In this document: piece by piece, positions 2,472 to 19,268 of the stretch | Numbering within the stretch: position 1 is the stretch's first letter | Layout of the letters: every line of letters begins with the position of its first letter | From: an uncultured Campylobacteraceae bacterium | Lineage (GTDB): Bacteria > Campylobacterota > Campylobacteria > Campylobacterales > Arcobacteraceae | Length of the DNA stretch: 34,567 nucleotides | Direction: 5' to 3' | Assembly (NCBI GenBank): GCA_937138295.1 | Contig: CAKZOX010000144.1 | Location: 1 to 34,567, forward strand | Notes under the pieces: generated by a model | The model's database searches: none | Told to the model about the DNA's origin: nothing | Seen by the model: the letters and a program-made list of their open reading frames with translations, nothing else | Made by a program: the position numbers and the translations under genes

Positions 2472-2909
2472 ATGGAAGCAATAGTAAGAAAATGAAACAC
2501 ATGGTCTCTTATATGAATTTCAGATAATGAATGAGAATTAGAATTAGCTCAAAAAAAATATGATGAAGTTATTACTGATTTTACAGTTACAGATGAACAA
2601 AAGTTTCTAATAAATAACTGAGCATCTTTTACTTATAATAATTGAATTATACTATGAGACACCACAGAAGTAGAAAATAATTGTAAAAAGCAAGAAATTT
2701 CTGCAAAAGTATCTAGAATGGAAGAGATAAACAAAGAATTGTTACAGTTATGAGATTCTAACGCTTTAGTATCATATCCAGCCCTAGATACTATTAGAAA
2801 TAATAAAATAACATCATTAACTGCTGAATTTGAATCTATAAAAGCAGACTTAGATAGTAACTATGAATCTACACTAATAGATGATGTTCTTAACTCATTA
2901 TTTAGTTAA
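2472..2909 (+). CDS. Fibre-associated helical protein, 145 residues
   Basis: Directly follows the fibre gene. Residues 1-70 look globular (KGNTWSLIGISDNEGELELA). Residues 75-145 are helical and charged with heptad-like spacing. The order fibre then helical small protein is common for fibre chaperones and tail-fibre assembly proteins, but no family motif is recognisable. Function inferred from position only. Confidence 0.65.
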
Positions 2910-2910
2910 T

Positions 2911-3048
2911 ATGGATAAGACTATAATTAAACTATTAGTTGCTACATTAATAATCCTCTCATTATGAGGCGTTGCTATGTACAGTAGAGTTGCTAATATA
3001 GATAACAATGTAAATAACAATGTAAATAAATATTGTTTAAATAAATAG
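2911..3048 (+). CDS. 45-residue single-pass membrane protein
   Basis: One hydrophobic helix at about residues 5-25 (IIKLLVATLIILSLGGVAMY) with a short Asn-rich tail (DNNVNNNVNKY). Two bases separate it from the gene before and three from the DUF1353 gene after. The location at the head of the lysis-like cluster makes a holin or spanin-like role possible. Confidence 0.55.
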
Positions 3049-3051
3049 ATT

Positions 3052-3441
3052 ATGAACTTAAAAAAATTATATAAATCAATAGTAATCTCCCCTTTATATG
3101 GGGGAAGAAAATGGATTGTGTTAAAAGATATAGAATACACGTTTAAATCTTTTTGAAAACCTTTTACAGTTTATATAAAAAAGGGCTTTGAATTTGATTG
3201 AGCTTCAATTCCTCGCCTATTTCACATTATATGAACTCCAATGTGAACAGACACTCTCCCTGGCGCTTTATTTCACGACTTTTTATATAGAACTCAACAA
3301 CTAACTAGAGAACAAGCAGACCAATGCTTTAATGAACTAATGATTGATACTAATGTAAGATTTATTAAAAGAAATTTATTCTATTTATGAGTAAGGATTT
3401 GAGGTTGGTTGGCATGGAAACAAAATAAGACTAGAAAATAG
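3052..3441 (+). CDS. DUF1353 family protein
   Basis: A 129-residue protein with the DUF1353 signature: GFEFDGASIPR (DGAS with TGA-coded Gly), then LPGALFHDFLYR, then a helix with REQADQCFNELM and a C-terminal hydrophobic RNLFYLGVRIGGW. DUF1353 proteins are common in phages and usually sit near tail or lysis genes; their biochemical role is not established. Full family length. The stop codon lies inside a terminator hairpin. Confidence 0.85.
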
Positions 3442-3451
3442 TCTTTTTTTT
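3427..3451 (+). terminator. Intrinsic terminator after DUF1353 gene
   Basis: Stem AAGACTA (3427-3433) pairs with TAGTCTT (3439-3445) over a five-base loop, followed by an eight-T run. The stop codon of the DUF1353 gene forms part of the stem, and the last Ts form the start of the next -35 box. Confidence 0.85.
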
Positions 3452-3477
3452 GACATTCAATTTTAAATCCTTATATT
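3450..3477 (+). promoter_or_regulatory. Promoter TTGACA-16-TATATT
   Basis: TTGACA (3450-3455), 16-bp spacer, TATATT (3472-3477). It directly abuts the terminator and reads into the XhlA-like gene, so it starts a separate lysis transcript. Confidence 0.75.
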
Positions 3478-3503
3478 ACAATTAATAACTTTAAAATATA
3501 AAA

Positions 3504-3917
3504 ATGTCAGAACATATAACAAGAGCTGACTTACTAAAACATGAATCTGATTGAAAAGATAGATTAAATAAAGCAAAAGAAGATATATATAACAAAATAC
3601 AAAAAGATAGACACGACTCTAAAAATAGAGACCAGATACTTTGATATGATATATCTGAGAATAAAGAGAATATAGCTTTACATAATCAATGAATAGAATT
3701 TATGAAAAATGAAGTAAGTGAAATTAAATTACATGTAAAAGAAGGTATTGCAGATATTAAACAAATAATCGAAAAGCAAGCTGAAACTTTTGCAACTAAA
3801 GCTGAACATAGGGAAAATAGTACAAAAATAAATTGGGTAATTAAAGTAATGTGGACTTTTTGAGTCGTAGGCATTATAGCACTTGCAACTTTTGCATGGG
3901 AATCTATTATTAAATAA
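3504..3917 (+). CDS. XhlA-like coiled-coil protein with C-terminal membrane anchor
   Basis: 137 residues. The first ~110 are highly charged and helical; the C-terminus has AEHRENSTKINWVIKVMW followed by one hydrophobic helix (FGVVGIIALATFAW). This layout matches XhlA-type holin-associated proteins, in which an amphipathic N-terminus lies on the inner membrane face and works with a holin and endolysin. Assignment is by architecture, not strong sequence identity. Confidence 0.6.
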
Positions 3918-3922
3918 TAAAC

Positions 3923-4120
3923 ATGAATTCATTAAGAATACTATATCACATGATGATTATAATTATATTACTATTTATAGCTGTAATGTTATATTCTAAT
4001 ATATATTCTAGCAATCAAGAAATAATTGCTAATCACAAGAAAGTAATTAAAAAGCAAGATGAATTATCTGCTGAAGTAAAAAAGATTAACTATCATTTAA
4101 AACGTTTAGAACTTTACTAA
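3923..4120 (+). CDS. 65-residue membrane protein with coiled-coil tail
   Basis: A hydrophobic helix at about residues 7-26 (LYHMMIIIILLFIAVMLYS) is followed by a charged helix (ANHKKVIKKQDELSAEVKK). The topology resembles an Rz/i-spanin-like or holin-accessory protein. It sits five bases after the XhlA-like gene and contains no TGA. Confidence 0.6.
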   Translation: MNSLRILYHMMIIIILLFIAVMLYSNIYSSNQEIIANHKKVIKKQDELSAEVKKINYHLKRLELY

Positions 4121-4126
4121 TAAAAT

Positions 4127-4225
4127 ATGCCTACAATTAAAAAACCAGACGGAACTAAAAAAAGAATCAGAAGAAGACTTAAACCAAAAAACCCAATGAA
4201 AAAAAGAAGACAAGGGGTTACTTAA
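4127..4225 (+). CDS. 32-residue highly basic peptide
   Basis: About half of the residues are Lys or Arg (KKPDGTKKRIRRRLKPKN and KKRR), with no acidic residue except one Asp. Nucleic-acid binding is likely from charge alone. It ends one base before the next -35 box. Too short for family assignment. Confidence 0.5.
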   Translation: MPTIKKPDGTKKRIRRRLKPKNPMKKRRQGVT

Positions 4226-4252
4226 TTGACATTTACATAATCCATATATAAT
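4226..4252 (+). promoter_or_regulatory. Promoter TTGACA-15-TATAAT
   Basis: TTGACA (4226-4231) begins directly after the TAA of the basic peptide; TATAAT is at 4247-4252. The spacer is 15, one shorter than in the other promoters. The expected start is about 4259, inside or next to a hairpin with a T run. Confidence 0.65.
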
Positions 4253-4253
4253 T

Positions 4254-4279
4254 GAGTTATTATTATTAACTCTTTTTTT
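4254..4279 (+). terminator. Hairpin plus T7 between promoter and start codon
   Basis: GAGTTA (4254-4259) pairs with TAACTC (4267-4272), followed by seven Ts and immediately by ATG. It looks like an intrinsic terminator for upstream transcription. Because it lies just downstream of the -10 box it may also form the 5' end of the metallopeptidase mRNA. The same arrangement recurs at 28029-28056. Confidence 0.7.
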
Positions 4280-4738
4280 ATGATTAAAGAATATAAATGA
4301 GTAGAAGTTGTCTGTAGTACAAAAGAAACTACAAGAAACGGTAAATACAATAGATTTTCTCAAATAATCGTACTATATCCTCATTTCTTCACACTAGATA
4401 AAATCAAACAAACATCAATACTAGAACACGAATACTGACATCATATATGGCATAAAATGCCTATGCTATATAAAAAGATTTGGGAATGGTTAAGTAATTG
4501 AAAGCTAATAAAAACACTAAATATAATGTGACTAACAAAAGCTACTACTAATTCTTATGTATCTTCTTATGCTAAAAAGAACATCAAAGAGGATTGGTCA
4601 GAATGTATAGAAGTTGATTACTTAGTAAAACATCACCCAGACTATAAAGGTACTAAATTAAAAGCATTTGCCACATATAAAATGTGAATAGCAGTATCAA
4701 TGTATAATTATTTTGCTAAAAAAGAACAATGAAATTAA
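4280..4738 (+). CDS. Zinc metallopeptidase (HExxH)
   Basis: 152 residues with ILEHEYGHHIW: His50-Glu51-Tyr-Gly-His54 is a gluzincin-type HExxH, the Gly being TGA-coded. About 50 residues later VSSYAKKNIKEDWSE provides Glu104 and Glu108 as likely third zinc ligand; a YAxxNxxEDxxE segment after HExxH is typical of small phage and bacterial metallopeptidases. There is no signal peptide. The stop overlaps the CHAP hydrolase start by 10 bases, indicating translational coupling, so a role in host-wall lysis or lysis-protein processing is plausible. Confidence 0.8.
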
Positions 4739-5322
4739 AAGATTTTATAGATAAATGGGAATGAAAAGTAATTGATTATGATGGGTATTATGGGTATCAA
4801 TGCACTGACCTTGTAAGACAATACTGTTTAGAAATGTTTTGAGAGACATATAAACCACATGGAAATGCTTGAACTCTATTTAATCAAGACTGGGGAAAAG
4901 ATTATATTAAATATGAATACAATTCAGAATTTATTCCTAATGAATGAGATATAGTTATATTTGATTGACCTACTAAATACGGTCATATTGCAGTTGTAAC
5001 AGAAGCAGACCTTATGAGTTTATTTATTATAGACCAAAATACATGAAGTTGAAATTGAGATTGAAAATGAGACAATAAAATAAGAGTTCATTCTCATTCT
5101 TATGCTGGAGTTATATGATATATTAGAAATATTAATTATAACACATTTAATATGAATAAATATACAAACATACTAGAAGACCTAGCAAAAGACGGCTATG
5201 AGCCAGTTTTTAATGATTATGAGTGAGATGATTGAGAAACTAAAACATTAATTGAGATTTGATTAGCAAGACAGGAGGAAAAGATAAAAAATAAGTTGAA
5301 AGATTTTATAAATTCAATATAA
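4729..5322 (+). CDS. CHAP-domain cell-wall hydrolase
   Basis: 197 residues. The N-terminal ~140 form a CHAP (cysteine/histidine amidohydrolase-peptidase) domain: YGYQCTDLVRQY with nucleophile Cys25, then NEGDIVIF, then KYGHIAVV with His86, then FIIDQNTGSG with an Asp/Asn near residue 101, and the closing strand GVIGYIRN. The last ~55 residues are charged and may bind a partner or wall. CHAP enzymes cut peptidoglycan amide or peptide cross-links; this is a strong candidate endolysin. No export signal, so it would need the nearby membrane proteins. Confidence 0.88.
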
Positions 5323-5356
5323 TATATTTGTTAAGAAATACGAAAAAAGCACTACT

Positions 5357-5391
5357 AAAAAAAGAAGAGATTCATTACCTCTTCTTTTTTT
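5357..5391 (+). terminator. Intrinsic terminator after CHAP gene
   Basis: AAAAAAAGAAGAG pairs with CTCTTCTTTTTTT across a nine-base loop. Because both the A and T flanks pair, it could work in either direction. Confidence 0.88.
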
Positions 5392-5393
5392 GT

Positions 5394-5421
5394 TTGCATA
5401 AATTTTAAACTCATATATAAT
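5394..5421 (+). promoter_or_regulatory. Promoter TTGCAT-16-TATAAT
   Basis: TTGCAT (5394-5399), 16-bp spacer, TATAAT (5416-5421). The predicted transcript starts near 5428 and at once contains TAAGC (5425-5429) pairing with GCTTA (5441-5445), with a Shine-Dalgarno-like AAGGAGA in the loop and the start codon at the stem's end. Confidence 0.7.
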
Positions 5422-5444
5422 ATATAAGCAACTAAGGAGAGCTT

Positions 5445-5558
5445 ATGAACAGAAGAAAGCGTAATAGAACACATAAACGTACTGCTTTTAACTCTAAATA
5501 CTGGTTTCGTAAACAAGCGAAGCTTAAGGAGGCTATCTCTTTTACTCATAGAAAGTAA
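5445..5558 (+). CDS. 37-residue basic peptide with a true Shine-Dalgarno
   Basis: MNRRKRNRTHKRTAF... is strongly basic with aromatic residues (KYWFRK). It differs from its neighbours: it has a canonical AAGGAGA five bases before ATG, three CGT arginines in a genome that otherwise uses AGA, more G/C at third positions, and no glycine at all. A nucleic-acid-binding role is likely from charge. The separate promoter and terminator make it a one-gene transcript, possibly acquired from elsewhere or under strong expression selection. Confidence 0.7.
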   Translation: MNRRKRNRTHKRTAFNSKYWFRKQAKLKEAISFTHRK

Positions 5559-5581
5559 TCGTAATAAAGTTGTAACAATTC

Positions 5582-5605
5582 GCTAGATTTATTCTAGCTT
5601 TTTTT
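5582..5605 (+). terminator. Intrinsic terminator
   Basis: GCTAGA (5582-5587) and TCTAGC (5593-5598) form a stem over TTTAT, followed by seven Ts. Confidence 0.85.
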
Positions 5606-5616
5606 ATTTTTATATA

Positions 5617-5721
5617 TATAATGTAGGTATAAATATTTGTACCTCCTACAACAAGTATTTAATATACTTTATATAAAAGTCGTTAATTGTAGGAGATTAG
5701 CGTCTTTTTGTTTATTTAAAT
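5617..5721 (+). promoter_or_regulatory. Structured leader of the first HNH gene
   Basis: TATAAT at 5617-5622 (or TATAAA at 5628-5633) could be a -10 box; no convincing -35 is seen. CTCCTACA (5643-5650) is an exact complement of TGTAGGAG (5688-5695), enclosing a second stem AAGTAT/ATACTT. The same CCTACA can instead pair with TGTAGG at 5622-5627. The two pairings are mutually exclusive, and the second could be an operator dyad. A GTCTTTTTG run follows just before the coding region. Confidence 0.5.
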
Positions 5722-6261
5722 ATGGAAAAAGAAGTTTGGAAAGATATTCCTGGTTATGAATGAAAATATTCTGTTAGTAATTTATGAAATGTAAGAAGTA
5801 ATAATTATAGAAGAACATGAAAAGTGAAAAAACTAAAGCTGTGCGATAGTAGATGATATAAAAGAGTAAATTTATCAATATACTGAAGGTATGATAGATG
5901 TTTAATACATAGATTAGTGGCAATATGTTTTTTATGATATAGTGAGTTATATGTTAATCATAAGAATTGAATTAGAAATGATAATAGAGTAGAAAATTTA
6001 GAATGGTGTACTCAATCTGAGAATATAAGACATGCTATAAAATATTTATGAATGTGAAAGAATAGAAAAATAAAGTATTGAAAAAATAACCCATTGTATT
6101 GAACTTGAAAATCTGTTATCCAATTTACAAATACGTGAATTTTTATTAAAAAATGGGATTGTGTAAGAGAAGCAATAGAGGCTTTAAATATTAAATCAAT
6201 ATATAAAGTAATAGATAAGTATGAAAAAACAGCAGGAGGCTTTATTTGGAAATATGAATAA
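5722..6261 (+). CDS. NUMOD4-HNH homing endonuclease
   Basis: 179 residues. The N-terminus EVWKDIPGYEGKYSVSNLGN is a textbook NUMOD4 DNA-binding module, with two TGA-coded glycines. An HNH_3 domain follows at about residues 65-110 (LIHRLVAICFLGY, then VNHKNGIRNDNRVENLEW). The C-terminus (residues 140-179, ending TAGGFIWKYE) matches a NUMOD1-type helical DNA-binding module. Such genes spread by cutting unoccupied sites. This one is free-standing between genes, with its own structured leader. Confidence 0.92.
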
Positions 6262-6298
6262 TTGTATATTGACAATGTGAAGATTTTGTGTGTTTTTA

Positions 6299-6326
6299 TT
6301 GCTTTAATTAGTTTTATAAATATAAT
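6299..6326 (+). promoter_or_regulatory. Promoter TTGCTT-16-TATAAT
   Basis: TTGCTT (6299-6304), 16-bp spacer, TATAAT (6321-6326). With the terminator at 6444-6468 it defines a transcript of roughly 135 nt. Confidence 0.65.
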
Positions 6327-6355
6327 AAAGATGTTTACTTACTAACTATCGACCT

Positions 6356-6445
6356 ATGACAATAGAAGATAACAAGAAAATTGTGGCATTAGAATCGAGG
6401 AGAGCAAGAGTACAAAGATACTTTCTTCTATATATTCACAACTAA
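6356..6445 (+). CDS. 29-residue peptide on its own short transcript
   Basis: MTIEDNKKIVALESRRARVQ... is charged with a short hydrophobic C-terminus (RYFLLYIHN). It fills the transcript defined by the promoter at 6299 and the terminator overlapping its stop. The unit could alternatively be a small regulatory RNA and the frame fortuitous. Confidence 0.4.
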   Translation: MTIEDNKKIVALESRRARVQRYFLLYIHN

Positions 6446-6468
6446 AAGAGATTAATTTCTCTTTTTTT
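6444..6468 (+). terminator. Intrinsic terminator
   Basis: AAAAGAGA pairs with TCTCTTTT around ATTAAT-like loop bases, followed by a T run. It overlaps the stop codon of the 29-residue peptide. Confidence 0.85.
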
Positions 6469-6568
6469 CTTGCAAATAGCCTGAAATTGACTAATATTTA
6501 TCTGCCGGGACAAGTATTTGTCAAAAACATTTTAGTTATTGCTGAAAGGTTTTATTTTAAAAAAAGTT

Positions 6569-6596
6569 TTGACTTTATTTTTGATATAGATATAAT
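6569..6596 (+). promoter_or_regulatory. Strong promoter TTGACT-16-TATAAT for structured RNA
   Basis: TTGACT (6569-6574), 16-bp spacer, perfect TATAAT (6591-6596). No start codon follows for almost 500 bases; the transcript enters the pseudoknot-capable RNA at 6603. Confidence 0.8.
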
Positions 6597-6602
6597 ACCT
6601 GT

Positions 6603-6697
6603 ACAAATTAAATTACATTCTCTCACAATAAAGCATTGCCTAAGTAAAAGGGTGTAATTTGCGAACAAACATTGTTGTGAGAGACAGTGTTTTTTTG
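6603..6697 (+). ncRNA. Pseudoknot-capable small RNA
   Basis: Two perfect helices cross: AAATTACA (6610-6617) pairs with TGTAATTT (6653-6660), and TCTCTCACAA (6619-6628) pairs with TTGTGAGAGA (6675-6684), the latter extendable by three pairs. Their order A-B-A'-B' is that of a pseudoknot or a two-state switch. The second helix is followed within a few bases by a T run (6690-6696), so it can also serve as terminator. A strong promoter lies just upstream. No open frame of note. Novel or known class not recognised. Confidence 0.65.
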
Positions 6698-6716
6698 TAT
6701 TGAAATTATCACTACA

Positions 6717-6990
6717 AGATTAAAAAGATTAAATCTTCCTCTTAAAAGCTAATTAGACTGAAATGCTTGGGATAGATAAAATTTAGTAAGTAGTTCACGG
6801 TCGAACCACAATGAGAGCCGAACTCTATAGCTATAGGGCATACTTACAAAAGGGAACTTGTGCTAGGTTTAGTTGCCTAGTCGTCTCTATCTGAGAAGCT
6901 ATATCAAAGATAGATGCTAGCCGAATTAAATAAGCTAGATATAAAATCCTCATTCCAGAGCTTTTAATTTTATTGAAAGTTGTGATGTGC
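6717..6990 (+). ncRNA. Large multibranched structured RNA
   Basis: A non-coding stretch with nested long-range complementarity. TTAAAAGCT (6742-6750) pairs with AGCTTTTAA (6959-6967). Next comes CTGAAATG (6758-6765) with CATTCCAG (6951-6958), 7 of 8 pairs, then GGGAT (6769-6773) with ATCCT (6946-6950). Inside are GTAAGTA/TACTTAC (6786-6792/6841-6847), AGAG-CCGAA-CTCT (6814-6826), CTAGG/CCTAG (6863/6880), TCTATCT/AGATAGA (6886/6914) and CTAGC/GCTAG (6917/6938). It is probably read from the 6569 promoter. I could not match it to tmRNA, RNase P, 6S or a group I intron by eye. Confidence 0.65.
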
Positions 6991-7078
6991 TGTTTTTATT
7001 TACGAATCTATTGTTTTGTAACTGATGTAATAAACTCTTTAGTTAGATACCCGTAATTTATTTTCCTTTTCCTACATT
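6991..7078. other. AT-rich leader before 7079
   Basis: No gene or clear promoter is visible here. A T-rich stretch (7059-7071) precedes the start codon at 7079. It may be the 3' end or processing region of the structured RNA. Confidence 0.4.
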
Positions 7079-7246
7079 ATGATAACTGCAACCCAAAGAA
7101 AGAGATTAAAAGAAGAATGATTAAACTGACATGATCTACGATATATTAAATCTATAGAACTAAAAGAAAAAACTAAGAAAGTATTATCTGTAAATTTATG
7201 AAAATGACTTTATGTAGATAAATATTGAAAACTACAAAATATTTAA
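7079..7246 (+). CDS. 55-residue basic protein, unknown
   Basis: Lys-rich (QRKRLKEEGLNGHDLRYIKS) with five TGA-coded glycines in 55 residues and a C-terminal GKGLYVDKYGKLQNI. The high density of in-frame TGA in an otherwise sensible sequence supports coding. Family unknown; first gene of the early block. Confidence 0.6.
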
Positions 7247-7263
7247 TTATTAACTATAAAATT

Positions 7264-7872
7264 ATGAGAAAAACTAAAATATGAGATAAAGAATATGAAT
7301 TATCTTTAGAAGATACAGAATATACAGAAAGTAGATGGTTTATAAATGATAATTGAGAAAAAACATCTTTTAGTTGACATTTTACTCCATTTGAAATAAG
7401 TATAAAAGAAAGTAATTATATGAAATCTAGTTATTTATCTTGAGATGATGTTAGAAAACAATGTGAGGGTACTTTAAAAATGAATTGAGTACAAGTATTT
7501 GAATGTTGGAATAGAACTTATGATAGAGTTTATAAAGAAATCCAACAATTTATAGATAAGTTAGAATTAATAGATATGGACGAATTTATTAATGATAAAT
7601 GGAAAGGTAAAATTATAGGATATAAAGAGCAATTATTTGTCATTGATTATAATATAGTAGACCAAGGTTGTATTATTATAAAACCTAAAGATTGAATTAG
7701 AAAACCATTTTTATGGGAACTATGAGATATGGAAGAATATCCTGAAAAATTTGAATTAAAAGAATCTATAAAATTGTGTATAACATCAGATATTGACTGG
7801 TTTATTAATGAAGAATTATATAAATGTACTTGTTGACTAAATCAAGCTTGTAGTAATTGTAACATTAAATAA
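7264..7872 (+). CDS. 202-residue protein with C-terminal Cys cluster, unknown
   Basis: Mixed alpha/beta composition; no catalytic motif recognised. The C-terminus contains YKCTCGLNQACSNCNIK, a CxC-x5-CxxC arrangement that could bind zinc. It is the largest unknown in this block and sits at the start of the early gene series, where host-takeover proteins are often found, but that role is not shown. Confidence 0.75.
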
Positions 7873-7877
7873 AAAAT

Positions 7878-8054
7878 ATGAACGAAGTACAAATGCTCGT
7901 TACTTATAATGAAGTAACACAAGAAGAATTTGAAGAATACGAGAATATAGCTGAAAAGATGCTAACTTGAAAATATGTATGACAAACAGAAATGAAAGAA
8001 GCTCTTTGATTTTATGTATTAAAGAGTTACTTATTAGAAAATAAACTACTATAA
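7878..8054 (+). CDS. 58-residue acidic protein, unknown
   Basis: A short acidic helical protein (NEVTQEEFEEYENIAEKMLT) with three TGA-coded glycines, ending in a Leu-rich helix (FYVLKSYLLENKLL). Five bases after the previous gene. No recognised family. Confidence 0.65.
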
Positions 8055-8077
8055 TTAATTACTAAATAAAGAAACCT

Positions 8078-8440
8078 ATGAAAGAAATAAATATTTACAA
8101 TAACGTATTTGGATTTAAAGTCATATGGGTTATATGAGAACCTGAGGAGTTTATAGATTATATGAATAAAAAATGAGTAGATATTTGATTAGAATGCATA
8201 GATTGAATTACTCATGTATGAAATGACCATACTGCTTATTTATATTTAAGTGATATTAGTGACTATGTCCTTTTGCATGAATGTATACATATTATTCAAC
8301 ATATATTAGAAAATAAATGAATTACAACAGGATTGGAAAACACAGAAGTTCTAGCATATAATGTAGATTGGTTATATAGAATGTTGCTAATGAATTATTA
8401 CAAATGGAAAGGTAACGATAAATGGAAAACGTATAAATAA
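8078..8440 (+). CDS. HExxH metallopeptidase-like protein
   Basis: 120 residues. LLHECIHIIQHILE gives His67-Glu68-x-x-His71, and ENTEVLAYNVDWL about 20 residues later supplies Glu90 as likely third zinc ligand. The layout (HExxH, short loop, NTExxAY) resembles small phage-encoded metalloprotease-like proteins. It shares no clear similarity outside the motif with the HExxH protein at 4280. Substrate unknown. Confidence 0.7.
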
Positions 8441-8454
8441 ACCTTATAATATAA

Positions 8455-8544
8455 CTAGACAAAGAACTAGAAGCCTGACATATAGAAATAGACCAGTATA
8501 ACAGACTGGTAGAATGAATTGATATTTTAGAATTAATGGAATAA
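8455..8544 (+). pseudogene. Possible start-less remnant of a small gene
   Basis: An open frame of 29 sense codons (DKELEAGHIEIDQYN then RLVEGIDILELME) looks protein-like and ends three bases before the next start codon, as real genes here do. It lacks any ATG, GTG or TTG at its head, where a TAA directly precedes CTA GAC. Either the start codon has decayed or initiation is unusual. Confidence 0.35.
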
Positions 8545-8546
8545 AT

Positions 8547-8750
8547 ATGGATAAACTACTAATAATAGATAAAAATAATAAGCTACTTGTATCTATGGAT
8601 AAAGAAGATTGAGATGAAATAATTGTTGATAATTCAATTACATTATCTTCAAATTGAGAAGGTATAGTTATACAATTAAATGAGGACTACAATACTCAAT
8701 GAGATGCGGAAGTTATTATTAAAGATTGAGAAATAAGATTTAAAGCCTAG
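8547..8750 (+). CDS. 67-residue beta-rich protein, unknown
   Basis: Acidic and beta-rich (MDKLLIIDKNNKLLVSMDKE, then ITLSSNGEGIVIQLNE). Last gene before a terminator; its TAG stop is in the hairpin stem. No family recognised. Confidence 0.6.
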
Positions 8751-8768
8751 ATTAATCTAGCTTTTTTT
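8745..8768 (+). terminator. Intrinsic terminator
   Basis: CTAGA (8747-8751) pairs with TCTAG (8756-8760) over TTAA, then a seven-T run. Confidence 0.8.
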
Positions 8769-8777
8769 GTAAAAGAT

Positions 8778-8856
8778 TTGCTTTTATTAGAAAAAACAAT
8801 ATAATACTTATGTGTTAATGATTATTTAGCACATTTTACAAAATAAATTGTACATT
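8778..8856 (+). promoter_or_regulatory. Early-class promoter and hairpin leader (8778)
   Basis: TTGCTT (8778-8783), 16-bp spacer ending AAAAAACAA, TATAAT (8800-8805). A 9-bp stem ATGTGTTAA/TTAGCACAT (8810-8818 and 8826-8834) follows at the predicted start, then TTTACAAAATAAATTG. The next ATG at 8857 opens an eight-codon frame (MNFFNQNI) that ends two bases before the real gene at 8886, a possible leader peptide. Confidence 0.8.
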
Positions 8857-8885
8857 ATGAATTTCTTTAATCAAAATATTTAACA

Positions 8886-9320
8886 ATGTTTGAAATACTA
8901 GAATTAAAATACAATAAAGAGGAACTACAAACTTACATTAACAAGAAACATCATACATTCCTTTGATTTAACGAATGACTAATGATATTCAAATTTAAGC
9001 AAGTAACAAGTAGGCAATTAGTAGCTAAAAAAGAAGCTGATAAGTTTTTTGAACAATTCCAAGATATTAAAAACCCTGTTATAGATAATACTCTAATGAG
9101 TAAACTAGCAGATGAGTTATGAATACAATGGAATAATGAAAAAGAAACATTAGCAAAATTTATAAACTTTTGGACAGAGTGAAAGACTGAATGAAAAGCT
9201 AAATGGGAAAAAGAGAGAACTAAGAGAGGTACTTTCGAGATAGTTAATAGAATGAGAGTATTTCTAGGAAATAAACCTACTTTAAATAATTATAAAAAAC
9301 CATGAATAAGAAAGATATAG
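8886..9320 (+). CDS. Phage replication-type protein
   Basis: 144 residues. The C-terminal half has LAKFINFWTEGKTEGKAKWE followed by TFEIVNRMRVFL. The pattern F-x-x-(Y/F)WTE ... G-K-x-(R/K)WE ... TF-x-x-x-x-R(M/L) is typical of the C-terminal region of phage and mobile-element replication proteins related to DnaD or lambda O. The N-terminus is an unassigned helical region. As the first gene behind an early promoter it may recruit host replication enzymes. No helicase or polymerase motif is present. Its stop overlaps the next gene by 19 bases. Confidence 0.6.
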
Positions 9321-9718
9321 TAATTCTTAAATTGTGGGATAATGAAGAAGTTATAGTAGAAATGAATATAGAACACTTTTTAGAAATGCAAAGAGAAGAT
9401 TTGAATCAATGAGTAAAAGAGTTTTATATATCATCTATGCAAAGAACTATTTGTTATTCTGATATAAAATGAAAACAAGGCAAAACTCAATATTTAAGCA
9501 TCGAAGCACCTAAAAACGAACCAACACTCGCAGAGAAAGAAAAGAGTGCTGAAATCCTTAGAAAACTAGCAAGAAAAGCAGAAGAATGAAAAGAGAAAAG
9601 ATTTATTGAGAGAAGAAATGAAATATTAGAGGATTTAAGAAAAAAAGAAGTAGCTTTAGGGTTGGAAACAACTGTTGATAAAATAGAGTGATATAACAGA
9701 TTAAAACTAATTAAATAA
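9302..9718 (+). CDS. 138-residue charged protein, unknown
   Basis: The N-terminal half is mixed beta/alpha (NKKDIVILKLWDNEEVIVEM). The C-terminal half is a long Lys/Glu helix (residues 75-125), probably a coiled coil. It overlaps the replication-type gene by 19 bases, so it may be co-translated and act with it. Confidence 0.65.
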
Positions 9719-9724
9719 AAGATT

Positions 9725-9907
9725 ATGAAGGAAGAAACTAGGTGTCCTGATTGTTGATGATTTTGACTACATTGATGTACAGGTAAAAAATATCCTTGAA
9801 GTGATGATATTGTAGGGATTAATAATTTCACATTATATTCATACCAAGAAGAATTTATTAAAAAGATAAATAGTTGAAAAGACATTACTTTACTTAAACT
9901 AAAATAA
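9725..9907 (+). CDS. Small DnaJ-type zinc-finger protein
   Basis: 60 residues beginning MKEETRCPDCGGFGLHGCTG. The CxxCxGxG repeat of DnaJ-like zinc fingers appears only if TGA is glycine (four of the glycines here are TGA). One full CxxC plus a single further Cys means a partial finger. Possible partner for the replication or nuclease proteins nearby; function unknown. Confidence 0.65.
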
Positions 9908-9909
9908 TT

Positions 9910-10044
9910 ATGATAGATATAAGCACAGGAAGAAAAACTACTTGGTTTAAATTAATATTTACACCTATTTGATATTTAATAGCTTTTGTTTTCCAAGTAT
10001 TTTTAGTGTCACTCATTATACAGTTTTTACTTAATAATATATAA
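9910..10044 (+). CDS. 44-residue membrane protein
   Basis: A short basic N-terminus (GRKTTWFK) and one long hydrophobic helix (LIFTPIGYLIAFVFQVFLVS and on to residue 40). Two bases after the zinc-finger gene and three before the next. Confidence 0.55.
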
Positions 10045-10047
10045 ATT

Positions 10048-10209
10048 ATGGAAGAAATAATAGATAAAGCTAGAAAAACAAGAAAGTCAGAATTAGAAAT
10101 AGCAGAAAAAATATTTAAAGAATGGCAAGAAACTAAATTTTGAAAATCAGTAACGGAATTACAGTATCAAACATATTTACAAACTGAACGGACTAAACAA
10201 CTTAATTAA
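10048..10209 (+). CDS. 53-residue helical protein, unknown
   Basis: Highly charged helix (ARKTRKSELEIAEKIFKEWQ) with a single TGA-coded glycine. No family recognised. Confidence 0.55.
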
Positions 10210-10222
10210 TAAATAAAGCCAC

Positions 10223-10378
10223 ATGAGCTACAATATAGAAAATCACTGAGACTACTTACATATATGAGTAAGTCTAAAAGAAAATATGACAAAAGGACAA
10301 TGGGTAAATATAAAAGTACCTAAAAGACATATTAAGGACAAGAGCCTTGATGACGATATTTTATTAAATGATGTTTAG
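10223..10378 (+). CDS. 51-residue protein, unknown
   Basis: MSYNIENHGDYLHIGVSLKE... is mixed in composition with a basic middle (KVPKRHIKDK) and an acidic end. Two TGA glycines. Unknown. Confidence 0.5.
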
Positions 10379-10381
10379 ATT

Positions 10382-10546
10382 ATGAAAAACTTAAGTATAA
10401 GAGTAAATCGTTTACTAGACCTTTACAAAATTAACTACATAGACTTCTGAAATGATGAGTCTGCAATGAGTTTTATTAATAAGCTAGTAGAAGAAAGAGT
10501 GAATAATAAAATATCAGAATACAAGAAATTAATATGTAAAGTATAA
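10382..10546 (+). CDS. 54-residue protein, unknown
   Basis: Amphipathic helical protein (KNLSIRVNRLLDLYKINYID then FINKLVEERVNNKISEYKK). The N-terminal SIRVNRLLD... is slightly reminiscent of ribbon-helix-helix strands, but not enough to assign. Ends at the next promoter. Confidence 0.5.
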
Positions 10547-10551
10547 AAGAT

Positions 10552-10624
10552 TTGCAATTAATATAAAAAACAATATAATACTTATATATCAGCTAACGAG
10601 AGCATATCTAATATTGATTATAAG
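10552..10624 (+). promoter_or_regulatory. Early-class promoter and hairpin leader (10552)
   Basis: TTGCAA (10552-10557), 16-bp spacer, TATAAT (10574-10579). The transcript start region folds as CTTATA+ATCA (10581-10591, one-base bulge) with TGAT+TATAAG (10615-10624). Confidence 0.8.
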
Positions 10625-10655
10625 ACTTAGAAACAAGATATAAAACTTAAAAACT

Positions 10656-10919
10656 ATGCAAAAACATATAAAAAACTATCTATCATATTATTGAATAGAT
10701 AATCCTGAAGAATTAAGATGTGAAGTATGTGGTATGAGAGCAACAGATATTCATCATATAATATTTAGAAGCCACTTCTGAAAAAACAAGAAGGACGAGC
10801 AAGATAATATTAAAAATTTGATAGCACTTTGTAGACTTGACCATGATAAAGCTCATTTTAAAACTGAACCTTATTTATCTAAGGAAGAATTACAAAATAT
10901 ACATAACGAGAATCTATAA
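10656..10919 (+). CDS. HNH endonuclease (small)
   Basis: 87 residues with a compact HNH fold: LRCEVCG (Cys22, Cys25), DIHHI (His33-His34), then NLIALCRLDHDKAH with the second CxxxH zinc pair. This is the zinc-coordinated HNH family used in phage recombination, packaging or homing. There are no DNA-binding modules, unlike the NUMOD genes. First gene behind its promoter. Confidence 0.88.
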
Positions 10920-10941
10920 TTTTACAATTAAAATATATATT

Positions 10942-11220
10942 ATGAAAAAATCAAAAACGATTACTATATTAGAAAACATGGATAACTGACAATGGTTAAG
11001 TAATAAAGACTTAAATAATATTGCTGGCTGGAGGTTTGGTTGAAGAATACATGATTTAAAAAAATACTGAGTTAGATTTACAAAAAAGAAATGAGAATGA
11101 TATGTTGAATGGTTTAAAATTATTCATATACCAAAAAACATACAATATAAATGAAGAAGAACATTAAAAGTAATTAGAGAAAAAACATTGATACAAAAAT
11201 TTAAAGCATTATTTAATTAA
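10942..11220 (+). CDS. Winged-helix DNA-binding protein (HTH_39-like)
   Basis: 92 residues. WLSNKDLNNIAGWRFGGRIHDL followed by KKYGVRFTKKKGEG is a winged helix in which RFGGRIHDLKKYG forms the recognition helix and wing, matching small phage HTH_39-type proteins (pattern GxRIxxLrxxGyxI). A regulator of early transcription is a reasonable inference. Confidence 0.65.
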
Positions 11221-11221
11221 T

Positions 11222-11443
11222 ATGCAAAAATTAAACGAACTAGCTTGTGAAATGTCTGCAATATCTTTTACAATTGTAAATCTAAAAAAGAAACTAAACT
11301 GGATTTTAAACGATAAAGAAAGATGTGATACAAGACAAAAGCTACAGGTAAAACAAAACGAACTAAAACAATTACATCAACAATTCAATTTACAGATTAA
11401 TGAATTATTATGTTGACCAAAATGACAAAAAAAGAGAAATTAG
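11222..11443 (+). CDS. 73-residue coiled-coil protein
   Basis: Starts one base after the previous stop. Residues 1-62 form a heptad-repeat helix rich in Leu, Lys and Gln. Under the standard code it would end at residue 64; with TGA=Gly it continues as GPKGQKKRN to TAG. It overlaps the next gene by 22 bases. Confidence 0.65.
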
Positions 11444-11532
11444 AGGCCATTTATAAAACTAAAAGCAAAAAATATCCTAATACTAATCTTACTGAAAAAG
11501 AGATTAAAAGAATAATAGAATTTAATTGTTAG
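11422..11532 (+). CDS. 36-residue basic peptide, unknown
   Basis: MTKKEKLEAIYKTKSKKYPN... then LTEKEIKRIIEF resembles a short helix-turn-helix or zinc-less adaptor, but is too short to assign. Embedded by overlap in the coiled-coil gene and two bases before VRR-NUC. Confidence 0.45.
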   Translation: MTKKEKLEAIYKTKSKKYPNTNLTEKEIKRIIEFNC

Positions 11533-11534
11533 AT

Positions 11535-11918
11535 ATGACAGTACCTTTAGAAAATGAAGAATCAGAAAAACTAGCTAATTGGTTAAGATTAAATAAGTAT
11601 ATGTTTACGCACATAGCTAATGAATCATGACTTCCTCCTAAGGTTGCAATGTTAGCAGCAAAAAGAAAAAAGAGAATGGGGCTTTCTCCATGATTTCCAG
11701 ACTTTTGTATAGTATTAAATATTAATGCTTTATTATTTATAGAGCTTAAAAGGCAAATAGACTACTCTAAAAGCAAGAAAGGAAAGAAATGGAGTACTAT
11801 ATCACCAGAACAAATAGAATGGTGTCAGAGGTTAAATGAATGTAGTAATACACAAGCTGAAATCTGTTATGGAGCAGATGAAGCAATAAAATTAATAAAA
11901 AGAATTGAAAAATTATAA
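11535..11918 (+). CDS. VRR-NUC domain nuclease
   Basis: 127 residues covering a stand-alone VRR-NUC fold: HIANESGLPPK, AKRKKRMGLSPGFPDFCI (the GxPD catalytic Asp), ALLFIELKR (ExK), SPEQIEWCQRL (Gln of the QxxW motif) and a C-terminal EICYGADEAIKLI strand-helix. Viral stand-alone VRR-NUC proteins are PD-(D/E)xK nucleases often adjacent to replication and recombination genes, as here. All catalytic residues are present. Confidence 0.9.
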
Positions 11919-12040
11919 AAAAAAGATATACTTATTACACGACAACAATAATTATATATAATCAGGAAAGAGCTTTTAAAGGTTAGTTGTCGTAAACTAT
12001 ATATCCCTTGAGAGTTCTTTTTTGTTATAACAATTTAACT
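11905..12040 (+). promoter_or_regulatory. Promoter and long structured leader of second HNH gene
   Basis: TTGAAA (11905-11910), 16-bp spacer, TATACT (11927-11932), overlapping the end of the VRR-NUC gene. The predicted transcript begins with ACGACAAC (11939-11946), exactly complementary to GTTGTCGT (11986-11993). A competing pairing, AAAGAGCTT with GAGTTCTTT (two G-U pairs), encloses TAGTT/AACTA and ends in a T run near 12018, so a terminator form excludes the 5' hairpin. An internal TATAAT lies at 11957. This is suggestive of attenuation. Confidence 0.6.
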
Positions 12041-12571
12041 ATGGAAATTTGGAAAGACATACCTTGATATAAAGGTTCATATAAATGTAGTAATAAATGA
12101 AGAATTAAAAGTTTAAAATTTTTAAAAGAAAGGATATTAAAACCCGCTTCTTGAAAAACATGATATTTAACTATTCAATTATGAGGGAAAACAAAAACTG
12201 TACATAGGATTATATTATCTACATTTAAATGAGATAGTTTATATGAATGTAATCATATAGATTGAAATAAATCTAATAATAATATCGATAATTTAGAATG
12301 GTGTACTCATAGTGAAAATATCATTCATAGGAAAGAAAAATTATGATATAAAAGTTTATTTGAGACTAATCATCCTTTTGTATGATTAAAATGAGGTGAT
12401 TGTCCAAATAGTAAAAAGATTAATCAATATACTATTGATTGAAAGTATATAAAAACATATTCATGTGCATCAGAAGCTTCCAATATTACATGAATATGAA
12501 GAGCTAATATCTCTGCGGTATGTAGTTGATTAAGAAAAACTACAGGTGGATTTAAATGGAAACATGCTTAA
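12041..12571 (+). CDS. NUMOD4-HNH homing endonuclease
   Basis: 176 residues. MEIWKDIPGYKGSYKCSNKG is NUMOD4; the HNH_3 core spans about residues 60-105 (TVHRIILSTF, CNHIDGNKSNNNIDNLEWCT). The C-terminus (INQYTIDGKYIKTYSCASEA to GGFKWKHA) is a NUMOD1-type module. Similar in layout to the gene at 5722 but clearly divergent, so the two are separate acquisitions or an old duplication. Confidence 0.92.
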
Positions 12572-12662
12572 TTTTAGAGTTGAAAGTGTTGAATTAACAA
12601 CAAAACAAAAAAAAGAAATGACAGGACATTATGTCAGAATATACATTTATAAAAACAAATAA
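12564..12662 (+). CDS. 32-residue peptide overlapping the HNH gene
   Basis: Starts eight bases inside the HNH gene and ends with TAATG shared with the next gene. Basic middle (TTKQKKEMTG) and aromatic C-terminus (HYVRIYIYKNK). Translational coupling on both sides favours coding; the role is unknown. Confidence 0.45.
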   Translation: MLNFRVESVELTTKQKKEMTGHYVRIYIYKNK

Positions 12663-12790
12663 TGATACAAGAAGTAGTAGTAGAGAATATAGGAGAACCT
12701 GGTAAAATAGTTTATAGAACAGAAGACCCTAACTTTAAACATTTTTTTAAAAAGACTGATTGAAAACCTAGAGGAATATTAATAAAATAA
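12662..12790 (+). CDS. 42-residue protein, unknown
   Basis: MIQEVVVENIGEPGKIVYRT... with a basic C-terminus ending RGILIK. Coupled to the gene before through TAATG. No family recognised. Confidence 0.5.
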
Positions 12791-12794
12791 GATT

Positions 12795-13385
12795 ATGGAA
12801 GAAATTTGGAAAGATATTGAATGATTTGAATTAAAATATCAAATTAGTAGTAAATGAAGAGTAAGAAGTTTATTTTTCTGAAAAAAAAGAATATTAAAAA
12901 CTAATGTTTCACGAGATATAACTACAATTACTATATGAAAGAAATGATTCAATGTTATTAGATTAGTTGCTCAACATTTTTTGCTAGAAGATTATAATCA
13001 CCCTAATATACATTTAATGAGTATAAAATTAAATGAAAAATGAGAACATAATATAAATACTTGAAACATATCATTAGAAAAGAAAAAAAGTAAAGCAAAA
13101 CGAAAAATATATAAAAAACAAAAAGATGATTTCCTAGTGTTAAGATATGAAGATGAACTAAAAAGTATTTGTAGTAGATATAGTTTATTATTAAAAGAAG
13201 AAGTATTATCTGATAAAAGAAATAAATATATCCAACAATGAAGATATGAATGCTATAAATTTTTAAGAAATAAATGATTTAGTTATTTACAAATAGGTAA
13301 AGCATTCAATAAAAATCATGCTGCAATTTTATATATTATGAAAAAATACAAAAAAGATTTGCAATTAGAAGAAAAAACAATATAA
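12795..13385 (+). CDS. NUMOD4 - DnaA-domain-IV-like fusion protein
   Basis: 196 residues. The N-terminus EEIWKDIEGFELKYQISSKG is NUMOD4-like. The HNH core is degraded: the His-Asn-His positions are absent in RLVAQHFLLEDYNHPNIHLM and following. The C-terminus (about residues 145-188), CYKFLRNKGFSYLQIGKAFN followed by KNHAAILYIMKKYK, matches the DnaA C-terminal helix-turn-helix (IGxxFxxRxHxxVxxxxxK). It may have been converted from a homing endonuclease into an origin- or operator-binding protein. Its last codons contain the next promoter. Confidence 0.7.
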
Positions 13386-13472
13386 TACTTGTAACTAAGG
13401 ACAACTAAAACGATTTAATTCAAACTAGCTGACTCCAAAGTTATAAGTATTTTTACAAATTAAATAGATATT
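13359..13472 (+). promoter_or_regulatory. Early-class promoter and hairpin leader (13359)
   Basis: TTGCAA (13359-13364), 16-bp spacer, TATAAT (13381-13386), all inside or across the 3' end of the preceding gene. Stem ACTTGTAACT (13387-13396) with AGTTATAAGT (13439-13448), ten pairs including one G-U, followed by the leader tail ATTTTTACAAATTAAATAG before ATTATG. Confidence 0.82.
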
Positions 13473-13697
13473 ATGAAAACATTTAAATTAACACTTCCTG
13501 TACCAGTTAAACTGAATGCAGAACAAATAGCAGATATTAGCTCAAGAGCTACTATAACAACTGATTCAGAATGATTAGTTACAGAATTAGAAAACGATAA
13601 CTTATATATGTTATCAGCAGCAATAGACACTTTATATGTTTATATGGAATCAGAAGATTATTTTAATAGTAAATGAGAATTTGTATGAGTGAACTAG
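13473..13697 (+). CDS. 74-residue acidic protein, unknown
   Basis: First gene behind its own promoter: MKTFKLTLPVPVKLNAEQIA... then acidic helices (YMLSAAIDTLYVYMESED). Overlaps the next gene by 13 bases. Location just upstream of recombination genes suggests a DNA-metabolism accessory role, unproven. Confidence 0.65.
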
Positions 13698-13951
13698 AAA
13701 AATATCAAGAAACAGGAAGAAGAACTCCAACTGACTTTAACGCAAAAGACCAACAAGTAAGTATGAGTGAAGAAATAAGAGAAAAAGAAATTAGAATGGA
13801 AAGAAGAAAACAATACGCAGAAAGTTTAGAATCAGAATGAGTGAAACAAATCTGGTCTAATATTCAAAAAAGATATATTCCTGAATGAGAATGGAATGAT
13901 GAGATGATAGAAAAAGAACAAGAACTTAGAGAATTTTTATTTGGTAACTAG
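13685..13951 (+). CDS. 88-residue charged helical protein, unknown
   Basis: Mostly charged helix (MSEEIREKEIRMERRKQYAE) with a Trp-containing C-terminal part (KQIWSNIQKRYIPEGEWND). Coupled between the acidic protein and the annealing protein. No family recognised. Confidence 0.6.
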
Positions 13952-13956
13952 GAAAT

Positions 13957-14616
13957 ATGGAAGAAAAGAAAAACTATTTTACAGAGTTAAATAAAATTAA
14001 CTGTGAAACTTCTGAAAAAAACAAACTAACTTATATTAGTTGGTCTGACGCATGGACAGAAGTAAAAAAAATGTATCCAGAGTCAACATATACTATTTAT
14101 GAAAACGAAGAATGATTCCCATTTTGGGAAAGTAAGTTTGGTATTGACTGTAAAGTATGAGTTACTATTCAATGAATTGAGCATATTGTTAGACTTCCGG
14201 TTATGAACGGAGCAAATAAAGCAATGAAAGCAGAATCATATACTTATCAAACTAATTATTGAGAAAAAACAGTTGAAGCAGCTACTCAATTTGATATAAA
14301 CAAAACAACACAAAGAGCATTTGCAAAAGCAATAGCAATGCACGGTATTTGATTATATGTATTCAGATGAGAAGATTTACCTGAAGATATGGAATGAGAA
14401 GTTAAAAAGACAACAACTCAAACAGCAGAAACAAAACCTAAATACTTTAACTATGAAGATTTAGTAGCAGTAGTAGAAGCATGAAATAATACACTAGAAG
14501 AAATCTTAAAAGTAATAAGAGAAGATTGATTTACTGTATCAGCTAATGCAAAAAAAGCTATTGCTGAATATGTGAACACTTGAGAAATAAACAAAGATAC
14601 TTTCTTTGGAAAATAA
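13957..14616 (+). CDS. Single-strand annealing protein (DUF1071/Sak3-like)
   Basis: 219 residues. LTYISWSDAWTEVKKMYPES opens the domain, followed by GVTIQGIEHIVRLPVMNGAN, KAMKAESYTY, ATQFDINKTTQRAFAKAIAM and HGIGLYVFRGEDLPED. This is the DUF1071/Sak3 signature (ISWxxAW, LPVM, NxxxxRxxxKAIAxxGLGxYxxxGEDLP) of Rad52-like phage recombinases that anneal single-stranded DNA. The C-terminal ~75 residues form a separate helical region, perhaps for SSB contact. It is the only recombinase recognised in the genome. Confidence 0.9.
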
Positions 14617-14638
14617 TTAATAACTAAATAAACAAACT

Positions 14639-15007
14639 ATGGAATTAAATAAAGCATATAATATTACGTATAAATGATACGAAGATAAACCAACTGATGA
14701 AATTTGATTGATTATAAATATAAAAGAAGATGAAATTACATATAAAACAACAGCGTCTGATTCCTATAATTGGATAAAAACTATAAACATAGAAAAAATT
14801 ATAGAAGTTTCAGAAATAAATATTATTGATTTTTCTGAAACCTTAGTTTCTAATACCGAAGAAGATATAAAAAGATTAGAAAGAGACTTAGAAGAAAAAA
14901 AAGAAAGACTTAAAAAAGTAGAAAAATTTATAGAAAATAGAAGTTATTTATGAAAATTTAAAACACTTTTATGATGTAATCCTTCTTTTACAAGTAATCA
15001 TTGGTAA
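14639..15007 (+). CDS. 122-residue protein with coiled coil, unknown
   Basis: Residues 1-70 are beta-rich (AYNITYKGYEDKPTDEIGLI). Residues 76-103 form a strong coiled coil (EEDIKRLERDLEEKKERLKK), followed by a short basic tail. Lies within the recombination cluster. Unknown. Confidence 0.65.
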
Positions 15008-15009
15008 TT

Positions 15010-15387
15010 ATGAAATGAAATAAAGAAAAGATAATAGAGTACATGAAAGATGACCAAGAATATATATGTTGTAAGGTAGAGAGTAAGGAAGGAAGAACTA
15101 TTGCACAAAATAGAACTTACTGGAAAATATTTACAGGAATAGGACAAAAGCTCTGATATTCAAAAGAAGAAACAAAACTGAATATACTCACTGCTTTGTT
15201 CTGAACCTATGAAATTAAAATGTTTTGAGAGGTACATAAAATCCCTCATAAAACAAGCACTACACAATTAAGTAAAGACGAAGCTATTCATTTAATAGAC
15301 TCATCACTAGCTTATGCAAAGAAAATAGGTGCTTGAATTAAAATAGAACCTCGTGAAATAACGAGCTTATATAATACTTATAATTAA
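15010..15387 (+). CDS. NinB-like recombination protein
   Basis: 125 residues. IAQNRTYWKIFTGIGQKLGY, SKEETKLNILTALFG, IPHKTSTTQLSKDEAIHLID and AKKIGAGIKIEPRE follow the pattern of the NinB/Orf family (QNxxxW, then T-S-x-x-L/M-S-x-x-E-x-x-x-L-I). Orf proteins help load annealing recombinases onto SSB-coated DNA, consistent with the Sak-like gene two positions upstream. Similarity is by motif only. Confidence 0.5.
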
Positions 15388-15393
15388 AAAACT

Positions 15394-15849
15394 ATGGAAC
15401 TATTAACAATTGAAGCATTTTTTCAACTTATAATAAATATTATAGCATTTTGAATTATGCTTAAAATATGAACTAAAATATCAAAAAAAGAACACGAAGA
15501 CCAGCTAGCTAAAGAAAGAATTGAATGGGAAGGTGAGAGAGAATTATTAGAAGAACAAATAGATGATTTTGTAAGAAATAACACTTACTGGCAAGATGAG
15601 TATACAAAAGAAAAGAAATCTAACAAAGCTCTTAAAGGTTGGAATACTAAGTATGTTAAGACAATTGAGGGATTAAGAGAAGAAATAGATAAATTAGAAT
15701 ACTGAAGTGATATAATGGAATCATCTATTGAAAACAAAAATAAAAAAATAGACGAAAGTAAAATCCTATCTGAAAAACTACTAACTATGGTTAAGAAAAA
15801 AGACATGGAAGAAGCAAAAGCAATAGTAAAAAAATATTATAAAATGTAA
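15394..15849 (+). CDS. Membrane-anchored coiled-coil protein
   Basis: 151 residues. An N-terminal hydrophobic helix (residues 5-26, IEAFFQLIINIIAFGIMLKI) is followed by about 120 residues of charged coiled coil. Could tether the phage replication machinery to the membrane or act in lysis; nothing decides between these. Confidence 0.6.
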
Positions 15850-15858
15850 TTAAAAGAA

Positions 15859-16044
15859 ATGAAGAATAAATGAGGTGCTCCAAAGAAAGGGAAAGGACAA
15901 ATCGTACAAAAAACTTATACACTTTATCCACAAGACTTACAAAATCTTGAAGATTTAAGATATATTTGGAAATGTAAAAAAACAGAAGTACTTAGAAGAT
16001 TGCTTAGTGAAGGGATTGAAAGAGAAAATAATAAAAAAGTGTAA
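15859..16044 (+). CDS. Ribbon-helix-helix DNA-binding protein
   Basis: 61 residues: a Gly/Lys-rich arm (KNKGGAPKKGKG), a strand QKTYTLYPQDL, then two helices (QNLEDLRYIWK and KKTEVLRRLLSEGIERE). This is the CopG/Arc/MetJ plan with the strand in the usual place. A repressor of the early promoters is plausible; the 16051 promoter starts seven bases after its stop. Confidence 0.72.
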
Positions 16045-16050
16045 AATAAT

Positions 16051-16130
16051 TTGCAATCTATTTAAAAAACAATATAATACTAGTGTAGGTTAATAAAGAC
16101 CTACACTTTTTACAAAATAATAATAACATT
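16051..16130 (+). promoter_or_regulatory. Early-class promoter and hairpin leader (16051)
   Basis: TTGCAA (16051-16056), 16-bp spacer, TATAAT (16073-16078). Perfect 9-bp stem AGTGTAGGT (16082-16090) / ACCTACACT (16099-16107), then TTTTACAAAATAATAATAAC before ATTATG. Confidence 0.85.
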
Positions 16131-16340
16131 ATGAAAAATAATTTAAACCAATTTAATGCATTAGCATTAGCAGTAATGGTTATTACAATGGTTGTAGCAT
16201 TAGCATTTGTTTCAATAGCTTATGTTGAACAAGAAAAAGCGTATAACTGTAATGAAATTCACAACAATAGTGAATACAAAGTAGAAGAACTAAGTGAAGC
16301 AGGGTGTTTTGATGATTTAGATTATATCAATAACCTTTAG
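16131..16340 (+). CDS. 69-residue membrane/secreted protein
   Basis: Residues 9-32 form a hydrophobic helix (ALALAVMVITMVVALAFVSI). The outer segment has two Cys (YNCNEIHNN and AGCFDDL) and is acidic. It heads the operon that contains the anchored lysozyme and could be a holin or superinfection-exclusion protein. No glycine is TGA-coded. Confidence 0.65.
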   Translation: MKNNLNQFNALALAVMVITMVVALAFVSIAYVEQEKAYNCNEIHNNSEYKVEELSEAGCFDDLDYINNL

Positions 16341-16344
16341 AAAG

Positions 16345-16587: not shown

Positions 16588-16590
16588 AAA

Positions 16591-17343: not shown

Positions 17344-17347
17344 AATT

Positions 17348-17679: not shown

Positions 17680-17701
17680 TTTATATATTAATAACATAGG
17701 T

Positions 17702-17911: not shown

Positions 17912-17935
17912 CTTATATTATTAAACTATATTAAC

Positions 17936-18112: not shown

Positions 18113-18114
18113 CT

Positions 18115-18273: not shown

Positions 18274-18275
18274 TT

Positions 18276-18901: not shown

Positions 18902-18902
18902 A

Positions 18903-19262: not shown

Positions 19263-19268
19263 GAGGTA

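Follow-up and report, generated by a model that had tools for sequence, protein, structure and literature searches.

The DNA analysed here, called the window throughout, is a stretch of 34,567 nucleotides. Its first 77 bp are repeated directly at its end (1-77 and 34491-34567), and it is therefore a complete circular phage genome, which uses genetic code 25. TGA is read as glycine: in the NUMOD4 motif IPGYEGKYSVSNLG it stands where glycines are conserved, and 134 TGA codons occur across the main structural genes. The relatives of the bin that holds this code-25 phage appear to use the standard code, so the phage has probably been mis-binned. IMG/VR holds relatives of its terminase, portal and capsid, and the accessory region 2472-13957 is mostly absent from phages in which these three are related. 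No tRNA or tmRNA gene was detected in the window by ARAGORN.

Between a CHAP endolysin (a late lysis gene) and the early genes lies a plus-strand unit composed of a probable sigma-70-type promoter (6569-6596), a leader with two mutually exclusive predicted folds (6603-6696) and a conserved multi-branched RNA domain of 321 nt (6707-7027), the last supported by model scores and compensatory pairs. The GC content of 6790-6940 is 41%, against 28% for the genome, and the remaining most GC-rich stretches of equal length are all genic. A different code-25 phage, represented by IMG/VR contig 3300023245_001286 (IMGVR_UViG_3300023245_001286, hereafter L061), has the unit in the same place, with the same endolysin gene upstream. 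The early genes that follow encode a Sak-type annealing protein and a resolvase-like protein in the window, and a DnaD-like loader and a DnaB-type helicase in L061; as judged by eye, the two phages have unrelated genes directly after the RNA, which is thus not bound to any particular one. In both phages the RNA sits between complete genes, in agreement with a preliminary description of the locus made from the window alone. The homing endonuclease that this description placed beside it is indeed its upstream neighbour (NUMOD4/HNH, 5722-6261, plus strand; Pfam NUMOD4 1e-15, HNH_3 1e-10), ending about 450 nt before the RNA, but it forms no part of the feature. No NUMOD4/HNH ORF is present among the listed ORFs between endolysin and RNA in L061, and paralogues occur at 12008-12571 of the window and in the relative phage G110; to judge from these sequences, the endonuclease is therefore an inserted neighbour outside the unit.

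Two smaller features share the plus strand of this intergenic region. A small RNA of about 170 nt may lie between the endolysin and the homing endonuclease (5393-5600), bounded by a promoter-like site (5393-5421) and a terminator-like site (5582-5598). After the endonuclease comes a 29-codon ORF without TGA (6356-6445; MTIEDNKKIVALESRRARVQRYFLLYIHN), read by eye as a possible small gene; an AT-rich hairpin resembling a terminator, also seen by eye, lies just behind it at about 6448-6471.

The homologous RNA (L061:10402-10721) was located in pattern scans with the exact patterns GTTCACGGTCGAACCA and TGAAATGCTTGGGATAR, which represent two parts of the region; L061 was the single viral contig with both. 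A single-sequence model of the region scores 252 bits at this site. With the model R2 the window reaches 394.5 bits and L061 387.9 bits, both of them training sequences of that model, and the E-values of the RNA models are rough. The family is known from two sequences only, with each change seen once. The conserved block, which extends from the T7 tract at 6690 to 7074, is 87-89% identical between the phages and its core (6742-6967) 92.5% identical, whereas the adjacent endolysin gene reaches 71% identity in DNA and 64% in protein. Apart from a short marginal hit, tblastn matches just two window proteins to L061, and the head proteins of L061 fall in PHROGs families other than those of the window. 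That two structurally different phages share an RNA conserved far above the neighbouring gene suggests a function in infection. The region encodes no protein, as had been proposed: no long ORF is common to both homologues in code 25 or 11, and no plus-strand open frame of more than 47 codons is shared.

The domain is closed by helix P1, in which the 5' strand (6707-6730, comprising 6707-6711, 6713-6720 and 6726-6730) pairs with the 3' strand (7005-7027, comprising 7005-7009, 7013-7020 and 7023-7027); in L061, C6715-G7018 is replaced by U-A and U6730-A7005 by A-U. Inside P1, hairpin P2 (6733-6777; 6733-6740/6769-6777 and 6746-6749/6765-6768) shows A6733-U6777 changed to U-A. Domain P3 (6786-6847) is predicted to pair GTAAGTA with TACTTAC around two hairpins, and the CGG and CCG of their loops, noted previously, could kiss. 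The P3 helices are invariant between window and L061, and the longest stretch without any difference, 51 nt at 6782-6832, falls mostly within P3. Three hairpins follow, each with one exchanged pair in L061: P4 (6862-6881; G6867-C6876 to A-U), P5 (6886-6914; U6892-A6908 to C-G) and P6 (6917-6938; C6917-G6938 to U-A). The arm P7/P8 (6941-6999; 6941-6945/6995-6999 and 6959-6967/6973-6981) also carries compensatory changes, with C6961-G6979 replaced by U-A, U6962-A6978 by C-G, U6965-G6975 by U-A and U6942-A6998 by U-G. Beyond P1, a small hairpin conserved in L061 (7041-7045/7054-7058, one G-U pair becoming A-U) has the loop GAYACCCG and is followed by a likewise conserved TTTTCCTTTTCC tract (whole element 7041-7074), which reaches the next start codon; conservation ends at 7074.

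The fold scored against L061 was the minimum-energy fold of 6707-7027 computed from the window alone, its endpoints having been taken from the two-sequence consensus, with the homologue in view, before that fold was tested. The comparison gives 8 double compensatory changes, 3 broken pairs and 2 pairs that stay consistent through a one-sided change. When the same 32 substitutions were placed at random, the mean was 0.53 double changes (maximum 5 in 20,000) and 10.4 broken pairs. The two-sequence consensus fold, which the window's minimum-energy fold nearly equals, is closed by the same P1 strands, includes eight double changes and beats column-shuffled or substitution-shuffled alignments by 3.6 s.d. 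(z -3.6), and none of 500 shuffled alignments reached 8 double changes. One further two-sequence shuffle control, weak by construction, was set aside. The plus strand is favoured by G-U pairs that persist or alternate with A-U. Because L061 keeps the same fold through matched mutations, we hold with high confidence that the fold is conserved and that the RNA itself is under selection.

The preliminary description had instead framed the RNA by three nearly coaxial helices: TTAAAAGCT (6742-6750) with AGCTTTTAA (6959-6967), 9 pairs; CTGAAATG (6758-6765) with CATTCCAG (6951-6958), 7 of 8 pairs; and GGGAT (6769-6773) with ATCCT (6946-6950), 5 pairs. These complementary stretches exist, as do the inner hairpins, but the argument that such long-range pairing is very unlikely by chance is wrong for this sequence taken alone, in which both the closing duplex and the folding energy are ordinary. 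The duplex reaches -16.2 kcal/mol, and a scan of the same 34.6 kb yields about 40 non-overlapping pairs of stretches with similar spans at -17 kcal/mol or better. The folding energy of 6717-6990 has a z of -0.41 (64 of 200 shuffles equally good), that of 6742-6967 a z of -0.86, and that of the 6707-7027 domain itself falls within the shuffle range. The absence of compensatory changes in a homologue had been named as what would speak against the structure, and it is found for the three closing helices, where L061 has two pairs broken, one turned into G-U and none changed in a compensatory way; in the inner hairpins the comparison has the opposite result and supports them. The 5' strand of the stack belongs largely to P2 and its 3' strand largely to P8, both hairpins with compensatory changes, and the P7/P8 arm competes with the 9-pair helix. 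The closed domain, placed earlier at 6742-6967, accordingly has its bounds at 6707 and 7027. With its fold kept through the eight double changes and no Rfam family matching it, the characterisation as a large unrecognised structured RNA stands.

The Rfam 15 search, which covered the whole window at E up to 5, returned no match in the RNA, and a permissive search of 6262-7078 (E up to 10) gave three hits in all, each below threshold and none extending past 6694. Blastn and the single-sequence model produced only noise in same-family genomes, phage and plasmid collections and closer phage relatives. Scans guided by the proteins of the downstream ORF and of the endolysin yielded no further homologue, neither did two genome-collection scans, and among 397 genomes of the bin's phylum R2 matched only the window. 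The literature searched on phages of recoded candidate-phyla bacteria and their RNAs yielded nothing on this RNA. Several candidates were rejected: a model match in G110 (22.5 bits), which lies inside a coding gene and was judged to be chance; the pattern hits L095, L098 and L099, discarded as chance; and a match in a neighbouring genome (L003), which lies within an unrelated standard-code gene.

The promoter TTGACT-16-TATAAT agrees with the consensus at 11 of 12 positions and is the top-scoring site in 5300-21990, in AT-rich DNA where promoter-like matches are common and about as frequent as expected by shuffling (121 vs 122.7). Some 110 nt separate this best site from the domain, the early genes follow downstream, and L061, read by eye, has TTGACA and an AT-rich -10-like stretch in the same relative place. 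The leader is predicted to fold either as a terminator, in which CATTGT (6670-6675) pairs with ACAGTG (6684-6689) before T7 (6690-6696), or as an antiterminator, in which CTCTCACAA (6620-6628) pairs with TTGTGAGAG (6675-6683). Its folding has a z of -2.75 in the window and -3.83 in L061, and no shuffle folds as well. The two folds reach -21.5 and -22.5 kcal/mol in the window and -27.9 and -26.5 kcal/mol in L061, about 1 kcal/mol apart in each phage, so that both leaders have the mutually exclusive predicted folds of near-equal energy that mark an attenuator. From promoter to T7 the phages cannot be aligned, yet both keep a terminator hairpin with a loop region that can pair with a segment lying before it. 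Among all runs of T6 or longer on both strands of the window and L061, only the homologous T7 of each sequence has this arrangement; the two cases were known when the pattern was drawn up, so the argument rests more on its uniqueness. The pattern suggests that the sequence of the upstream switch has been replaced across the two phages and its logic kept.

The reading that we favour, tentatively, is that the RNA is the 5' leader of the phage early operon, with the upstream leader and the domain on one transcript and the domain presumably acting in cis on transcription. Transcription would start at the promoter at about 6569-6596, and within about 95 nt the leader would fold into one of two structures close in stability, an intrinsic terminator or an antiterminator. 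Polymerase that passes this point would make the closed multi-branched domain of about 320 nt (P1-P8) and continue into the early genes; the most likely target of the domain would be the transcription complex or a host factor, through which it would set or sustain early transcription. This reading is preferred because a probable early promoter and a predicted bistable terminator stand upstream, conservation runs to the start codon and no terminator of the RNA's own was seen. Its antitermination role is weakened, since a simple scan of the plus strand from the RNA to the terminase genes came up with no terminator-like site. The main rival, almost as likely, is a trans-acting noncoding RNA: the 321-nt domain may be processed from the early transcript or made apart from it, and would bind a host protein, the ribosome or polymerase at take-over, with the upstream terminator setting its dose. 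A closed domain with a long P1 stem, an invariant stretch of 51 nt around P3 such as a binding site would show, unrelated first downstream genes and conservation far above the neighbouring gene all fit such an RNA, but the terminator scan found no terminator-like site at its 3' end, and conservation continues past P1 to a few bases before the next start codon, as in a leader.

The remaining explanations carry much less weight. If the unit were an antisense-regulated attenuator for superinfection immunity, the leader would diverge as the carrier of specificity, a counter-transcript would tip it into the terminator fold and the large domain would be the rest of the regulated leader; leaders that cannot be aligned and nevertheless keep two alternative folds are what this predicts, but it is improbable, as no minus-strand promoter-like site occurs within 6262-7300 and the strong conservation of 6707-7027 is left unexplained. 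A decayed fragment of a structural gene of this phage group, with accidental structure, is more doubtful still. A 21-aa stretch in frame +0 does resemble the product of 31450-33522, above 1000 shuffles, and the RNA models match the same place in relatives' versions of that gene; against this, some 60 genes could have matched, nucleotide identity is at background over the whole aligned stretch, and the compensatory changes and lack of a shared long frame fit an RNA, not a protein. Least probable of all is that the homing endonuclease left behind part of a group I or group II intron, an idea for which that upstream gene is the argument: no intron family or core was matched in 6262-7078 even at the permissive E of up to 10, no split gene was seen, the RNA occurs in L061 with no endonuclease beside it, and the compensatory changes indicate present selection.

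The upstream leader resembles the attenuators of the pT181 type and of P4 immunity, in which mutually exclusive terminator and antiterminator folds form in the leader, in having two exclusive folds at 6603-6696; unlike them, it is followed by a large conserved RNA domain, and no antisense promoter was seen. The EAR antiterminator, a cis-acting structured leader proposed to modify elongation in Bacillus exopolysaccharide operons, is smaller than the domain, and no Rfam match to it was obtained in 6262-7078. The functions of GOLLD, ROOL and OLE are mostly unknown, GOLLD and ROOL are often phage-borne, and the domain is about half their size or less. With these large multi-branched bacterial RNAs (PMC12286853) it has its general form in common, but no Rfam match. 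The put RNAs of phage HK022 (putL and putR) are structured RNAs that follow an early phage promoter and require no dedicated protein; they are about 70 nt long, with two stem-loops, and bind the beta' zinc-binding domain (PMC9378689). The RNA described here probably likewise stands at the head of an early operon, but it is 321 nt long and multi-branched, with at least eight helices. Because size and architecture differ, membership of the put RNAs is not claimed, and they may serve as a precedent for its possible action. That it founds a class of its own among the regulatory RNAs of viruses of code-25 bacteria, in which a terminator switch and a large polymerase-modifying RNA domain would drive early transcription without a dedicated protein, seems unlikely on present evidence. 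The RNA is common to two phages with different structural genes and matches no Rfam family, and because it precedes the early genes and follows a predicted terminator switch of conserved logic, early-gene control in these uncultured phages becomes testable in a cell-free system.

A second structured RNA candidate stands on the plus strand at the head of the terminase genes (19607-19778). It spans 166 nt with a long closing helix, followed by TTTTT, has a z of -5.07 to -5.15 with no shuffle as good, and has no Rfam match. A syntenic noncoding stretch before the terminase genes of the relative phage G107 (L041:16177-16400, minus strand; z -6.1, closing helix of about 21 pairs) is possibly the counterpart of 19607-19772, although its model match is weak (18.8 bits). 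A repeated motif, approximately ACAAATTAAATAGAATATTATG, occurs at 13450-13475 and 19774-19800, which are 96% identical, and at about six weaker sites; the copy at 13450-13475 extends into the ORF start codon at 13473. G110 carries TGCAGGTTCGAGTCCTGCC, which resembles a tRNA T-arm, in noncoding DNA close to its terminase genes (L040:3087-3340, minus strand).
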